From positions 13,058-46,285 of the forward strand of contig JAHEEM010000003.1 in the NCBI GenBank assembly GCA_024640695.1: DNA of 33,228 nt, given 5' to 3'. The translations under genes and the position numbers were made by a program. Positions 21,374 through 30,448 of this stretch are shown here, one piece after another. Within the stretch, counting starts at the first letter, position 1, and each line of letters opens with the position of its first letter. The notes beneath the pieces were generated by a model, which was not told where the DNA came from, did not search any database, and worked only from the letters and a program-made list of their open reading frames with translations. Source of the DNA: Rhodospirillaceae bacterium (lineage in GTDB: Bacteria > Pseudomonadota > Gammaproteobacteria > Steroidobacterales > Rariloculaceae).

Positions 21374-21709
21374 GTGGCGGGCATCGTCGAGGAGCTGTCG
21401 CCTAGGGCGTTCTGTGAGCGCTGGCCCGAGGAGCATCCGGATCGAGTTCAGCTGCTGGATGTGCGGGCGCCAGAGGAGCTCGCGCTCGTTTCTTTACCGC
21501 GCGCCGCACACATTCCCATGATGGAACTTCCCGCTCGCCTCAACGAGCTCGATCCCACGCGGCCGGTCGTGGTCATGTGCCACTCAGGCCAGCGTAGTAG
21601 ACACGTCGCAGCCTTTCTGTTAGCAAATGGGTTCGAGCAGGTCTATAACCTCAGCGGCGGCATCGACGCGTGGTCAGCAGAAATCGATCCCGGGCTGCCG
21701 CGATATTGA
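21374..21709 (+). CDS. Single-domain rhodanese-like sulfurtransferase
   Basis: Small cytoplasmic sulfur-carrier or transferase domain. The 111 residues include LLDVRAPEEL, HIPMMELPAR and the active-site loop CHSGQRS with Cys69, matching the C-x-x-G-x-R loop of active rhodaneses. GTG start, 4 bases after the stop of the PIMT-like gene, so co-transcribed. The TolC-family gene begins 43 bases after its stop. The physiological sulfur donor and acceptor are unknown; conservation next to tolC is a recurring arrangement without an established functional link. Confidence 0.93.
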   Translation: MAGIVEELSPRAFCERWPEEHPDRVQLLDVRAPEELALVSLPRAAHIPMMELPARLNELDPTRPVVVMCHSGQRSRHVAAFLLANGFEQVYNLSGGIDAWSAEIDPGLPRY

Positions 21710-21752: not shown

Positions 21753-23183
21753 ATGAGCATGAAACGTCTTTGCATACTGGGCACGGCTTTCGCAACCGGT
21801 CTCGGTGCAACAAACGCTGGCGCGGAGAATCTGATGGAGATCTATCAGCGGGCGGTACAGAGCGATCCGCTCATCCGCCAGGCCGAGGCCGTCTATCTGG
21901 CGAGCTTGGAGGCCAGGCCGCAGGCGCGTAGCAGCGTCCTGCCTTCGCTGAACTTTTCAACTGCCACAAGCACCGCCAACTCTAAGGATCCCAACCGACC
22001 GGTGAACTTCGCAACAGGTGTCGTCGACCCGAACATTCTCTCGACGGAGGTCGATCGGGATAACACGAACTGGTCACTGAACCTGACGCAGACCGTATTC
22101 GACTGGGGGCAGTTCGTGCAGCTCAAACAGGCCGATAAGGTCGTCGCTCGGGCCGAGGCCGACTACCAGATCGCGAAGCAGAATCTGCTCGTGCGAGTGG
22201 CGAGCACTTACTTTCTTGTCTTGGCTGCCGAGGACACGCTCGCCTCCGACCAAGCCGCGCGCGAGGCCGTCAGCCGCCAACTCGAGCAAGCGCAACGGCG
22301 TTTCGAGGTTGGCCTCATCGCAATCACCGACGTTCAGGAAGCCCAGGCAGGCTACGATCTAGCGGTAGCCACGGAGATTGGCTCTCAGCAGAACGTGGCC
22401 ACGACGCAGGAATTTCTGCGCGAAATTATCGGCGAGTACGTCCGGGACCTCGCACCACCCGTTGCCGACATTCCGCTGCTGAGTCCACAGCCCGCGAGCG
22501 TCGAGGCCTGGGTTGATCAAGCGCTGGAGCAGAACCTGTTGTTAATCACCGGCCGCTTGTCGTCTGAGATCGCGCGCGACAATATTTCCATCCAGCGTAG
22601 CTCCCGGCTGCCGAGTATCAATCTGTCGGGCTCCTTGTCCCAGTCCGGTTCCGATACCGTGCGCTATAACAACCTCATCACAAACCCGCCCTGTCTGCAG
22701 GACCCCCCCTGCCCCCCAACACAAACCCCATCGCGGAGCGACTCGGAGAGCTACAGCTTCGCGCTTAACCTGCGCGTGCCCATCTATACCGGCGGCTTCA
22801 ATTCATCGCGCATTCAACAGGCTGTCTACGAGCACCGCGGCTCCATCGAGGCCTTGGAACGTATCGCGCGCCAAACGGAGCGCGAAGCACGAGACGCTTA
22901 CCTGAGCGTGATTTCAGAGATCTCTCGCGTGCGCGCATTGGCGCAAGCGGTCCAATCCACGCGGACGGCGCTCAGAGCGACCGAGGCGGGTTTCGAGGTC
23001 GGCACGCGCACGACTGTCGACGTCCTGACCTCGCAAAACACGCTTCGAAGAGCAGAAACAACGTTTGCGCGAAGCCGTTATGACTATATTCTCAACGTGC
23101 TGCGCCTGAAGCTCGCAGCGGGCAGCCTGTCGATCGCCGACCTCGAAGAGGTCAATGGCTGGCTGGAGACTCCCAGCAGCTAG
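21753..23183 (+). CDS. tolC: TolC-family outer membrane efflux/secretion channel
   Basis: Outer membrane trimeric channel working with inner-membrane pumps or type I secretion systems. The 476 residues begin with a signal peptide (cut after TNAGA, about residue 22). Mature sequence starts ENLMEIYQRAVQSDP, the TolC hallmark. The two internal repeats are visible: LTQTVFDWGQ in the first and LRVPIYTGG in the second, each followed by long helices. The two loops expected at the cell surface are long. The second contains PPCLQDPPCPP, with two Cys and runs of Pro encoded by poly-C. The ATG at 21753 has ACAGG 6 bases upstream; ATG 21759 is also possible. It converges on hldE. Confidence 0.96.
   Translation: MSMKRLCILGTAFATGLGATNAGAENLMEIYQRAVQSDPLIRQAEAVYLASLEARPQARSSVLPSLNFSTATSTANSKDPNRPVNFATGVVDPNILSTEVDRDNTNWSLNLTQTVFDWGQFVQLKQADKVVARAEADYQIAKQNLLVRVASTYFLVLAAEDTLASDQAAREAVSRQLEQAQRRFEVGLIAITDVQEAQAGYDLAVATEIGSQQNVATTQEFLREIIGEYVRDLAPPVADIPLLSPQPASVEAWVDQALEQNLLLITGRLSSEIARDNISIQRSSRLPSINLSGSLSQSGSDTVRYNNLITNPPCLQDPPCPPTQTPSRSDSESYSFALNLRVPIYTGGFNSSRIQQAVYEHRGSIEALERIARQTEREARDAYLSVISEISRVRALAQAVQSTRTALRATEAGFEVGTRTTVDVLTSQNTLRRAETTFARSRYDYILNVLRLKLAAGSLSIADLEEVNGWLETPSS
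22703..22717 (+). repeat. Poly-C runs inside tolC
   Basis: Seven C (22703-22709) and six C (22712-22717) are separated by TG, with another four-C run at 22727-22730. They encode the Pro/Cys-rich stretch of the second predicted surface loop. Such homopolymers can slip during replication and shift the reading frame. Confidence 0.9.
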
Positions 23184-24821: not shown

Positions 24822-25529
24822 TCACCCGCACTTCGAGTAACCGCAATTCAAACAGGTCATGCAGCCATCGAGCTTCACCGCGGCCGCGGTGCTGCACTTA
24901 GAGCAAAGCTGCGCCCCTTCTGGAAAGGCCTGTTCTGCGAAAGCATCCTGCTGCCCCCCGCGCGCTTCGAACTCTGCGCGCTTGCTGGCGAGCACACTCT
25001 GATGCTCCTCTGTCAGGGCCAGCGGCTTTAGCAGCCCGATCTGTAACAAGTGCTTCTCGACGATATGTCCGAGCTCGGCAATGATCGAGGGCATGAATTT
25101 TCCGCCCGGCTGCCAGTAGCCGCCTCGTGGGTCGAACACTGCCTTTAGCTCGTCGACCAGAAAAGTTACGTCGCCGCCTTTTCGAAACACGGCCGACATT
25201 ATGCGGGTCAGCGCAACAATCCACTGATAGTGATCGAGATTCTTAGAGTTGATGAAAATCTCGAACGGTCTGCGCTGCTCGTGCGGCGTTCCTTCGTTGA
25301 GGAGGATGTCATTGATTGTCACGTACATCGCATGATCCGACACGGGTGTCTTGACCTTATACGTCGAGCCTATGAGCATCTCCGGACGCTCTAGCTTCTC
25401 GTGCATCCGGATAACCTTGGCCTCCTCGGCGCGCGGTTCGATTCGCGTGACGACCGGTGCGCTGGCTTCGGCATTACCCGTTACCACACTGTACTTGACG
25501 ATTTTGCTTTCCATTGTTATTCGTGCCAT
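24822..25529 (-). CDS. nrdJb: Class II ribonucleotide reductase, NrdJb (C-terminal TSCPD) subunit
   Basis: Second polypeptide of a split adenosylcobalamin-dependent ribonucleotide reductase. The 235 residues carry the TSCPD-type domain (MYVTINDILLNEGTP, FEIFINSKNLDHYQW, LTRIMSAVFRKGGD) and a Cys-rich tail, CSKCSTAAAVKLDGCMTC followed by CGYSKCG. These tail cysteines are expected to re-reduce the active-site disulfide in NrdJa. ATG 25529 has GAAGAG about 8 bases upstream; ATG 25514 is a weaker alternative. It lies 168 bases after nrdJa with a terminator-like hairpin between. The two-gene arrangement matches Pseudomonas NrdJa/NrdJb. Confidence 0.93.
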   Translation of the reverse strand: MARITMESKIVKYSVVTGNAEASAPVVTRIEPRAEEAKVIRMHEKLERPEMLIGSTYKVKTPVSDHAMYVTINDILLNEGTPHEQRRPFEIFINSKNLDHYQWIVALTRIMSAVFRKGGDVTFLVDELKAVFDPRGGYWQPGGKFMPSIIAELGHIVEKHLLQIGLLKPLALTEEHQSVLASKRAEFEARGGQQDAFAEQAFPEGAQLCSKCSTAAAVKLDGCMTCLNCGYSKCG

Positions 25530-25638
25530 CTGCGTTATCTCTTCAATGTCTTGGATCCAGCCGCTGCTCGGCCGGCTCTAGATTGGACCATCACCCGCAA
25601 GGCTTTTAGCCACCGCGACGAAGAACCGTCGACCTGCC

Positions 25639-25657
25639 AAAAGGCCGCACCGCGGCC
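25639..25657 (-). terminator. Terminator-like hairpin between nrdJa and nrdJb
   Basis: On the minus strand GGCCGC-GGT-GCGGCC is a perfect 6-base-pair stem with 3-base loop followed by four T. It lies in the 168-base gap between the two subunit genes and may lower readthrough to nrdJb. The short T-run suggests partial termination or an RNA-processing signal rather than a full stop. Confidence 0.5.
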
Positions 25658-25697
25658 GCGCCATTTTTCGAGCTTTGATTCGCACGTTACCATCTAC

Positions 25698-27845
25698 TCA
25701 CAGCTTCCCGTAATAGCCTTCCTTGAGAGCATCGAACAAGTTCGCGGCGGTATGAATCTCGCCGTCGTAATCGATCTCATCGTCCCCCTTCGCCTCGATA
25801 ACGCTGCCGTCGTCGAGCGTAAACCGATAAGTAGTGTTCTTGAGGTCCTTCTCTTTGACGAGCACACCTTGAAATGCCTCCGGGTTGAAGCGGAATGTCG
25901 TACAGCCCTTGAGTCCTTTCTCGTGAGCGTAGAGATAGATGTCCTTAAACTCCTCGTAGGGATAATCGGTCGGAACGTTAGCGGTTTTGGAAATAGACGA
26001 ATCGATCCAGATTTGCGCGGCCGCCTGTATATCCACATGTTCGCGTGGCGAGATGTCCTCGGAACTCACGAAATAATCCGGCAGGCGCTCGGATGGGGAC
26101 TCGCAGTCCGGTCGCGCCTTCGGGTTCACGAGCTCTCGATAAGCGAGCAGCTCAAACGAAAATACGTCGACTTTCTCCTTAGTTTTCTTGCCTTCCTGAA
26201 TGACGTTGCGGAAGTAGTGGTGAGCGAACGACGGCTCGATACCGTTACTCGCGTTGTTAGCCAGCGATAACGCAATGGTGCCCGTCGGCGCGATCGAGCT
26301 GTGATGCGTAAAGCGCGCGCCCTCCTCGGCCAGCTGCGACACGAGCTCTGGCGCAACGCTCGCCAAGCGCTGCATATAACGACTGTACTTCGCATGCAGT
26401 GTCCGCCCAGGAATACTGTCGCCGACACTCCAGCGATCCTCGATCATCTCTGGACGCTTGCGCAACATTTCCTCGGTCACAGTGAAGCTCTCCGTGAGGA
26501 TCGGGGCCGGCCCCTTCTCCCGAGCGAGCTCGAGACCCATTTCCCAACCTGCAATTGCGAGCTCGCGCGAAACGTCCTCGGTGAATCGAACCGACTCCGG
26601 CGAACCGTAACGCATGCCGAGCAATGTGGTCGCCGAACCCAAGCCTAAGAACCCCATACCGTGCCGCCGCTTGCGCTGGATCTCCTCGCGCTGCTTGGCG
26701 AGTGGCAGGCCGTTGATCTCCACGACATTGTCGAGCATGCGTGTGAACACGCGCACGACTTCGCGGAACTCTTCCCAATCGAAGCGCGCATCGTCACAGA
26801 AAGGATCGATGACGAATTTGGTCAGATTGATCGAGCCGAGAAGACATGCCCCATATTCCGGCAGCGGCTGCTCGCCGCAGGGGTTTGTCGCGCGAATGGT
26901 CTCGCACCACCAGTTGTTATTCAGATCGTTGACCCGATCGATCAGCACGAACCCGGGTTCGGCGAAGTCGTAGGTCGAAGACATGATCATGTCCCAGAGC
27001 CGTCGCGCCGGAAGCTCTTTGTAGACTCGACAAGCGACAAGTCCGTCTTCGTTGCGCACATACGCATTCTTGGCCGGCCAGTCTCGCCATGTGACCTGCG
27101 CCGGATCGTTCAAATCTATGCCATCCTCGTCAACCTCGCGTTGCGTCATCGGAAAAGCTTGGAACCAGTTGCGGTCTTCCCGGACCGCCTGCATGAACTC
27201 GTCCGTGATCAACAAAGAGAGATTGAAGTTTCTGAGACGACCGTCTTCGCGTTTGGCGCGAATGAACTCCATCGCATCGGGATGACTGATGTCGAAGGTA
27301 CCCATCTGGGCGCCGCGCCGTCCTCCGGCCGAAGATACCGTGAAACACATCTTGTCGTAGATATCCATGAAGGAAAGCGGACCCGACGTGTGGGCTCCCG
27401 CGCCCGAGACATAGGCACCCCGTGGGCGCAGTGTCGAGAACTCGTAGCCGATCCCGCAGCCTGCCTTGAGCGTCAAACCGGCTTCATGGACTTTCTCGAG
27501 TATGTCGTGCATCGAATCCTTGATCGCGCCGGAAACGGTGCAGTTGATCGTCGAAGTCGCGGGCTTGTGCGCCTCGGCGCCGGCATTGGACATGATGCGC
27601 CCCGCGGGTGTCGCGCCGCGCTGCAGCGCCCAGACGAACCGCTCATACCAATATTCACGCTTGATCGGATCCTCGATGTTTGCCAGCGCCTCGGCTACTC
27701 GCTCAAAAGTACCCTGAACGTCTCGATCGACAGGCTGCCCAGATTTGCTCTTGAGTCGATATTTTGTGTCCCAAATGCTCCACGATGCTTCCTGTAACGG
27801 CAGCTCCGAGACCTTAGTAGCTTTGAGTTCAAGCGCTGTTTTCAT
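25698..27845 (-). CDS. nrdJa: Adenosylcobalamin-dependent (class II) ribonucleotide reductase, NrdJa catalytic subunit
   Basis: Reduces ribonucleotides to deoxyribonucleotides with a radical from coenzyme B12, with or without oxygen. The 715 residues hold the disulfide-forming Cys in INCTVSGAI, the loop TLKAGCGIGYEF, the catalytic NPCGEQPLPEYG with thiyl Cys and Glu, and TGTIALSLANNASNG. The thiol-rich tail is absent here and present in nrdJb. I chose ATG 27845. An in-frame TTG at 27917 would add 24 residues but lacks a ribosome site. The leader carries a dyad and an NrdR-like box, and a TTGACA promoter lies upstream. No B12 riboswitch box was found in the leader. Confidence 0.95.
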   Translation of the reverse strand: MKTALELKATKVSELPLQEASWSIWDTKYRLKSKSGQPVDRDVQGTFERVAEALANIEDPIKREYWYERFVWALQRGATPAGRIMSNAGAEAHKPATSTINCTVSGAIKDSMHDILEKVHEAGLTLKAGCGIGYEFSTLRPRGAYVSGAGAHTSGPLSFMDIYDKMCFTVSSAGGRRGAQMGTFDISHPDAMEFIRAKREDGRLRNFNLSLLITDEFMQAVREDRNWFQAFPMTQREVDEDGIDLNDPAQVTWRDWPAKNAYVRNEDGLVACRVYKELPARRLWDMIMSSTYDFAEPGFVLIDRVNDLNNNWWCETIRATNPCGEQPLPEYGACLLGSINLTKFVIDPFCDDARFDWEEFREVVRVFTRMLDNVVEINGLPLAKQREEIQRKRRHGMGFLGLGSATTLLGMRYGSPESVRFTEDVSRELAIAGWEMGLELAREKGPAPILTESFTVTEEMLRKRPEMIEDRWSVGDSIPGRTLHAKYSRYMQRLASVAPELVSQLAEEGARFTHHSSIAPTGTIALSLANNASNGIEPSFAHHYFRNVIQEGKKTKEKVDVFSFELLAYRELVNPKARPDCESPSERLPDYFVSSEDISPREHVDIQAAAQIWIDSSISKTANVPTDYPYEEFKDIYLYAHEKGLKGCTTFRFNPEAFQGVLVKEKDLKNTTYRFTLDDGSVIEAKGDDEIDYDGEIHTAANLFDALKEGYYGKL

Positions 27846-27898
27846 GTTCGTATCATGCCCCCCTAGAGTTCCGGACTCGTGCGGCTCGCCCGCAAATC

Positions 27899-27916
27899 TG
27901 ACCGGAATATCGGTCA
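27899..27916. promoter_or_regulatory. Inverted repeat in the nrdJ leader
   Basis: TGACCG and CGGTCA flank a 6-base spacer, 54 bases before the nrdJa ATG. It could be an operator or a small RNA hairpin. I do not recognise the regulator. Confidence 0.5.
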
Positions 27917-28002
27917 AAAACTTAATAAGTCTCGAGCCAAGCGACCCCCCGCGGGCATGCCGATAGCCGCCCGTTGTCCTTGATTCGTAATTAAAAGTCG
28001 CG

Positions 28003-28826: not shown

Positions 28827-29044
28827 ATCCACCAGCAGTGCGACGCAGAAGCGTTCTCGGGCATCTTATGCGGCAGGACCCGTATCGGATCGGCAAGAGG
28901 CGCCTGCTCCGGATTAGACTCACTGCACGATGGCAACGCATATACCAAATTTCTGTACGGGGGCCGTACGCTGATACTCTTTGCGGTCGCGGCAACGGGC
29001 GCGATGGCCGCCCCCCCATGTAGGGGTTTCTCAGGAGGACTGAA

Positions 29045-30448
29045 ATGATCGAACATCGAGCCCGCCCAATGACGCTTCGACTCGGCGATTCGCGCTGGCT
29101 GCTGACAGCAATTCTTATCGCGATTACCGCAGCTTATCTACCGGCGGGACAGTCGGTCGCCCAGCTCGCGCGCACCCCCGAGCTACCAACGCTTGCGCCC
29201 GTCATCGACGCTGTCGGGGCCGCGGTGGTCAACATCTCGGTGCGCGGCAGTGTCGAGGTCGATAACCCGTTGGCCAATGACCCGTTTTTCCGGCGTTTCC
29301 TGCCGCCGAACGGCGAGCGGCGGGAATTCCGCAGCGCGGGCTCCGGCGTCATCGTCGATGCCGCACAGGGCTACATTCTCACCAACCATCACGTCGTCGA
29401 GAATGCCGAGGAAATCACCATCACACTGGTCGACGACCGCAGCCTGCAGGCAGAGGTCATTGGCTCCGATGCGGGCTCGGATATCGCCGTTCTGCGTGTC
29501 GAGCCGGACAGCCTCTCCGAGATGCCGCTCGGCGACTCCGAAGCCGTCCGGGTCGGTGACTTCGTACTCGCGATAGGCAACCCGTTCGGGCTGCAGCACA
29601 CGGTCACTTCCGGCATCGTCAGCGGGCTCGGGCGCACGGGCATCAATCCCGAGGGTTACGAGGACTTCATCCAGACCGATGCCTCGATCAACCCGGGCAA
29701 CTCCGGCGGCGCGTTAGTAAATCTCAACGGCGAGCTCATCGGCATCAACTCGGCAATCCTGTCGGGCTCGGGTGGCAACATCGGCATTGGCTTTGCGATA
29801 CCCGTCAACATGGCGCGCAGCATCATGGATCAAATCGTCGACTACGGCAGCGTGCGGCGCGGCCTGCTCGGCGTCAACATCGCTCAGCTCACGCCCGAGA
29901 TCGCAGAGGACTACGAGCTCGAGACCACGTCCGGCGCGCTCGTCACGGCCCTAAGCACAGGCTCGGCCGCGGAACGCGCAGGGCTGCAGATCGGTGACAT
30001 CATCGTCAGCGTCGACGACGAGCCGGTTGCCGACCCGCTGTCGCTGCGCAATGCGATCGGCCTGAGGCGACCAGGGGACCGCGTGCAGGTTGGCTATATC
30101 CGCGACGGCCGGCGCCGCACGGTCGAGGCCGTGCTTGGCGAGGCGGAAGCGCCCGCGGTCGCCGCGGGCGAACTCGACGAGCTCGACGAGCGGTTTCAAG
30201 GCGCCGAGTTCGCAACCAGCAACGAGCAGCGGCCGGACTATAGCGGCGTACCGGGCGTCCTCGTGACAGCCGTCGAGCAAGGCAGCCCAGCGGCACAGCG
30301 GGGCTTGAGGACCGGCGACATCATTACGCACGTCAATCGGCAGCGGGTCAGGTCCCTCGCCGATGCGCGCATGATCATCGAGAACTCGCGCTCCGTCGTG
30401 CTGCAGATTCAACGCGACAACCGCAACCTGCTCCTACTCATGCCCTAA
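29045..30448 (+). CDS. degQ: Do-family periplasmic serine protease/chaperone (DegQ/DegP)
   Basis: Periplasmic quality-control endopeptidase degrading misfolded envelope proteins. The 467 residues have a signal sequence (helix near 18-32, likely cleavage after VAQ or nearby), a trypsin-like domain with His116 (TNHHVV), Asp146 (SDIAVLRV) and Ser220 (NPGNSGGA), then two PDZ domains near 258-345 and 390-465. The missing long LA loop and the length favour DegQ/MucD over DegP. AGGAGG 6 bases before the ATG gives a strong ribosome site. It follows hsp20 by 263 bases and probably has its own promoter; I could not find a convincing sigma-E site. Confidence 0.95.
   Translation: MIEHRARPMTLRLGDSRWLLTAILIAITAAYLPAGQSVAQLARTPELPTLAPVIDAVGAAVVNISVRGSVEVDNPLANDPFFRRFLPPNGERREFRSAGSGVIVDAAQGYILTNHHVVENAEEITITLVDDRSLQAEVIGSDAGSDIAVLRVEPDSLSEMPLGDSEAVRVGDFVLAIGNPFGLQHTVTSGIVSGLGRTGINPEGYEDFIQTDASINPGNSGGALVNLNGELIGINSAILSGSGGNIGIGFAIPVNMARSIMDQIVDYGSVRRGLLGVNIAQLTPEIAEDYELETTSGALVTALSTGSAAERAGLQIGDIIVSVDDEPVADPLSLRNAIGLRRPGDRVQVGYIRDGRRRTVEAVLGEAEAPAVAAGELDELDERFQGAEFATSNEQRPDYSGVPGVLVTAVEQGSPAAQRGLRTGDIITHVNRQRVRSLADARMIIENSRSVVLQIQRDNRNLLLLMP

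Follow-up and report, generated by a model that had tools for sequence, protein, structure and literature searches.

The gene examined here, tolC, lies on the plus strand of a 33,228-nucleotide stretch of DNA, which was analysed as a whole and is referred to below as the window. It encodes an outer membrane efflux or secretion channel of 476 residues. Translation was taken to start at the ATG at position 21753, the longest open frame beginning at 21627. The product matched the Pfam OEP profile PF02321 (E-value 1.2e-57; 195.2 bits for a cut-off of 22) and scored 309.1 bits against TIGR01844, above the cut-off of 225.15, which places it in the TolC family. Its best solved relative was E. coli TolC (phmmer E-value 2.6e-64). 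An AlphaFold2 model built from 36 sequences (mean pLDDT of 87.1) displayed strands and helices in the order found in TolC, i.e. four strands plus long helical hairpins, and was matched by Foldseek to E. coli TolC 1ek9 with TM-scores of 0.77/0.85 and 35% identity. The TolC-like channel proposed by the initial annotation was therefore supported by Pfam OEP, TIGR01844, phmmer, and Foldseek. The score against NF007002, the profile of the E. coli-type TolC equivalog, was 369.1 bits, under the cut-off of 495, indicating that the window protein is a relative of E. coli-type TolC and not that equivalog. Scans of the window with Rfam and for tRNAs detected nothing. The features of the gene are as follows.

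21753..23183, plus strand: tolC, outer membrane efflux/secretion channel, 476 residues (Pfam OEP PF02321, TIGR01844, E. coli TolC structures)
21990..22034, plus strand: first extracellular loop as modelled, residues 80-94, without Cys, between model strands 65-79 and 95-116
22677..22718, plus strand: second extracellular loop as modelled, residues 309-322, holding the Cys pair, between model strands 288-308 and 323-341
22692..22694, plus strand: Cys314 codon, TGT, from the reading frame
22703..22709, plus strand: C7 run, formed by the last base of Asp GAC and Pro CCC CCC
22710..22712, plus strand: Cys320 codon, TGC, from the reading frame
22712..22717, plus strand: C6 run, formed by the last base of Cys TGC, Pro CCC, and the CC of CCA

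The initial annotation drew attention to runs of seven and six C two bases apart, and both are present at 22703-22709 and 22712-22717, separated by TG. The surrounding loop 2 sequence is NPPCLQDPPCPP, and the frame opened by the ATG at 21753 reads N-P-P-C314-L-Q-D-P-P-C320-P-P across the runs. Placement of the runs in the second extracellular loop, also proposed at the outset, fits the AlphaFold2 model, in which residues 309-322 connect two strands; by TolC topology, this modelled segment is the second extracellular loop. Residues 311-320 of the loop were modelled at low confidence (pLDDT of about 54). The prediction that slippage would truncate the channel also held, since frame +1 stops after 338 residues and frame -1 after 383.

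To obtain an expectation for C and G runs, a first-order Markov model was derived from the dinucleotides of the window. Two C-runs of at least 7 were present (at 22703 and 29011) for 1.4 expected, and no G-run of at least 7 for 0.75 expected. Contingency loci are recognised by tracts that are longer or commoner than chance predicts, and the single C7 run was at chance level. In the entire assembly, C7 or G7 gave 100 overlapping matches, which were merged by hand into 71 runs, the longest of 10. The arrangement of a C7 run followed, after 1 to 6 nucleotides, by a C6 run occurred once in the whole assembly and is thus uncommon, the chance figures above referring to single runs. CCC accounted for 99 of the 389 Pro codons in the 21 window genes, and the C7/C6 pair arises from coding Pro-Pro-Cys-Pro-Pro at this level of CCC use, which will occasionally produce such runs. 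The second C7 run of the window, at 29011-29017, is located approximately 28 bases upstream from a gene for a trypsin-like/PDZ protease (29045-30448) and is possibly a chance occurrence. The longest C-run of the assembly, a C10 at G000:C78:610-619 (four overlapping matches), is a more promising slippage candidate than the C7 run of tolC.

Relatives of the window TolC were compared by tblastn. Matches at an E-value of 1e-30 or better were obtained for 189 of 194 loci, corresponding to 156 distinct proteins. One of them, an 86-residue C-terminal piece (L120, from genome G015), has no loop, leaving 155 loop-2 sequences; loop 1 is missing from the same piece and from three pieces of genus g31, leaving 152 loop-1 sequences. 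The TolC rows were not selected by Cys number, but the sample is not random, since many rows from outside the family were picked for a good loop-fragment score, which can inflate the Cys-bearing share. Within the family, 21 of the 22 genomes had a TolC match (G012 had none) and 20 full-length TolCs were obtained. A tree of 155 rows was built from alignments excluding the loop, by a quick method that gives weak support in places. A class-wide search matched 37 of 369 genomes. Among the 30 loci listed, one was the window's own; 26 of the other 29 were alignable as TolC, none of these with a loop Cys, and four of the 29 came from genomes already covered by the order-level search.

Two TolC orthologues from the same genus were 79% identical to the window TolC. 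Alignment of the loop with relatives, suggested initially as a check, revealed that the run was absent from both (no C or G run longer than 4 in the loop region, n = 2), whereas the Cys pair was kept. The two loops, NAPCFQAPPCPP and NPPCAILPTLCPP, are in frame. Among the 12 TolCs of the family that contain the Cys pair, a C-run of at least 7 was found at these codons in three, the window protein and two species of genus g10, and was absent from the remaining nine. The two g10 proteins (L010 and L011, from species G018 and G014) are encoded with an in-frame C8 at the matching Cys-Pro-Pro codons (TGC CCC CCC CAA), whereas their neighbour L009 has TGC CCA CCC CAA, indicating that such runs form and vanish by synonymous codon change. 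The 156 TolC coding frames contained 32 runs of at least 7 of any base, 27 of which were runs of A or T. All 20 full-length TolCs of the family were in frame, with no broken copy among them, and the stops flagged in six family rows were ordinary C-termini. On this comparison of sequences, the C-runs seem to be a consequence of encoding many prolines in this loop, and not a genetic switch.

The distribution of the Cys residues of the loop was all-or-none. Loop 2 contained no Cys in 137 of the 155 distinct sequences, one in none, and two in 18. Co-occurrence of Cys without singletons is the pattern by which a disulfide-bonded loop of an outer membrane protein is recognised. Other uncommon residues of loop 2 were mostly single, unlike Cys: sequences with 0, 1, or 2 copies numbered 141, 13, and 1 for Met, 101, 49, and 5 for His, 109, 36, and 10 for Lys, and 99, 46, and 7 for Tyr. 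Loop 1 was devoid of Cys in all 152 sequences, and three of the 137 TolCs lacking loop-2 Cys had a Cys elsewhere in the mature part. In the 18 paired loops, the two Cys were spaced by 5 to 15 residues, and a Pro preceded the first Cys or followed the second in every case. Twelve of the 20 full-length TolCs of the family had exactly two loop-2 Cys, these being the only Cys of the mature part. By genus, the pair was present in 3/3 (g1), 7/7 (g10), 1/1 (g6), and 1/1 (g7). It was also present in six of the eight TolCs read in genus g31, which belongs to another family, f15 (three of the six being C-terminal parts). The possibility that the pair is a quirk of one genus was ruled out by its occurrence in g31. 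The paired loops of g31 (L141, L142, L144, L173, L175, and L176) sit in different sequence surroundings.

On the tree, the Cys state changed at least four times, by gain or loss, across two families; the principal clade of paired loops within the family had a support value of 8. Both Cys changed together in 4/4 independent contrasts (sign test, p = 0.125, a test that cannot reach 0.05 because there were only four contrasts). One g31 species (L156) is devoid of both Cys and of the intervening segment, its loop comprising 24 residues versus 38-46 in Cys-bearing relatives. The pair was associated with long loops. The mean length of loop 2 was 41.6 residues with the pair versus 25.3 without it; loops of at least 36 residues accounted for 17 of the 18 paired sequences versus 10 of the 137 others (tree set), and all 15 loops of more than 38 residues had the pair. 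The link between the pair and a long loop held in three of the four contrasts on the tree and was absent from the fourth.

The finding of loop-2 Cys only as a pair in the TolCs read indicates that the loop is probably pinned by a surface disulfide. The initial annotation had mentioned that the two Cys could form such a bond; all-or-none pairing over 155 loops makes this probable, and Cys314 and Cys320 of the window protein are, judging from sequence, probably bonded to each other. Taken as a whole, we consider it likely that the feature is an ordinary TolC loop 2, with Cys314-Cys320 most likely forming an intra-loop disulfide and with poly-C runs that do not act as a contingency switch.

TolC, an exported protein, folds via the periplasm, where DsbA and DsbB oxidise Cys pairs. 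The DsbA/DsbB system would oxidise Cys314 and Cys320 before or during insertion into the outer membrane. The bond would close a small Pro-rich ring that holds in place the tip of loop 2, which is long, variable, and situated at the mouth of the pore; the likely effect of the bond would be a stiffer and smaller tip. Matches to PF01323 (DsbA family) were detected in 22 of the 22 family genomes and DsbB in 20 of 22. The best PF01323 match of the source genome was modest (E-value 2.8e-12) and, as this profile is broad, the hit is only a putative DsbA. Since Dsb genes are also present in species without the Cys pair, and since no DsbB match was found in G021, a pair-bearing genome that is 86% complete, the distribution of the Dsb genes provides, with so broad a profile, permissive evidence only. 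In the available extracts of one study, Cys pairs engineered in E. coli outer membrane transporters were cross-linked in vivo unless the Dsb system was disabled (PMC10288552). Together with the presence of Dsb genes in the family, this observation makes the oxidised Cys314-Cys320 ring the expected state.

Other explanations were considered for the runs and for the Cys. Slippage in the C7 run, the C6 run, or both might switch TolC on and off and thereby alter susceptibility to phages, antibodies, or drugs. The locus resembles contingency loci with poly-G/C tracts described in Campylobacter and Neisseria in that slippage in an intragenic C-run would frameshift a surface protein: the C7 and C6 runs do exist and lie within the gene, gain or loss of one base in a run truncates TolC, the C7/C6 pair is unique in the assembly, and C8 occupies the corresponding codons in two other species. 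The C7 run also reaches the lowest cut-off (at least 7 G/C) of a Campylobacter phase-variation survey, as given in the accessible part of that paper (PMC6321876). However, the same part reports that phase-variable G/C tracts peak at 9-10 (PMC6321876), and Neisseria G/C tracts of at least 8 are described as predominantly variable in an extract from another study (PMC5084427). The tolC run is shorter than these common lengths, has the abundance expected by chance for a single C7, and is not kept in the orthologues of its genus, and 20/20 full-length TolCs of the family are in frame. A switch of this type is therefore extremely unlikely, and the phase-variation layout described initially was abandoned, the chance-level run being absent from both same-genus orthologues and from nine of the 12 Cys-pair TolCs. 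Since tolC had a single match within the source assembly, a cell in the off state would have nothing closely similar to replace it. Among the paper titles returned by a search for tolC combined with homopolymeric phase variation, none concerned a phase-variable tolC.

With respect to the Cys, two closely spaced residues on a flexible loop, present in three copies per trimer, might serve as a binding site for a metal or cofactor at the mouth of the pore. This is highly improbable, as the spacing ranges from 5 to 15 with differing residues between the Cys, and CxxC or CxxCH spacing was found in none of the 18 paired loops. The Cys might also bridge neighbouring protomers instead of pairing within one loop, since the loops of the three TolC protomers meet at a single pore mouth. 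Such bridging appears quite unlikely: the 18 loops always contain two Cys, down to 5 residues apart, and L156 lacks both Cys along with the segment between them, which a bridge between protomers would not need. Pairing of Cys314 with Cys320 within the loop remains our preferred reading.

The window protein and E. coli TolC (PDB 1ek9 and 5ng5) share the family, the fold, and two extracellular loops per protomer, but the E. coli stretch aligned with loop 2 by phmmer is shorter and devoid of Cys. TolC is the channel used by some E. coli phages and bacteriocins. The benefit of a bond is a guess: it might stiffen the loop or shield it against proteases, phages, or bacteriocins. According to the extracts available from PMC7260982, E. 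coli mutations that confer phage resistance but leave tetracycline resistance intact fall within the surface loops of TolC or close to them, making shielding or a change in the receptor a reasonable benefit, again as a guess in the present case. A long loop proposed to act as a disulfide-bonded scaffold has been modelled in other outer membrane proteins, in ECL4 of the FadL-like TP0856 and TP0858 of Treponema pallidum, which differ in that they belong to a 14-stranded FadL-type family and that ECL4 is Cys-rich rather than holding one pair (PMC8407342, accessible part). A native loop disulfide in TolC was not mentioned in the portions of open-licence papers retrieved by a literature search on TolC. 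A weak lead on phase variation is thus replaced by a testable structural trait, a repeatedly changing surface loop with paired Cys. We tentatively raise the possibility, which we regard as doubtful, that uncultured Gammaproteobacteria have, on several occasions, both acquired and lost a disulfide-closed loop-2 cassette as one unit, and that this cassette may act as a modular lid or decoy, with sequence free to vary inside a fixed staple, so that the channel mouth could evade phages or bacteriocins while efflux is retained.

Elsewhere in the window, positions 24822-27917 of the minus strand encode the large chain of a ribonucleotide reductase followed by a separate gene for a TSCPD-domain protein, an organisation that looks like that of a split B12-dependent enzyme.
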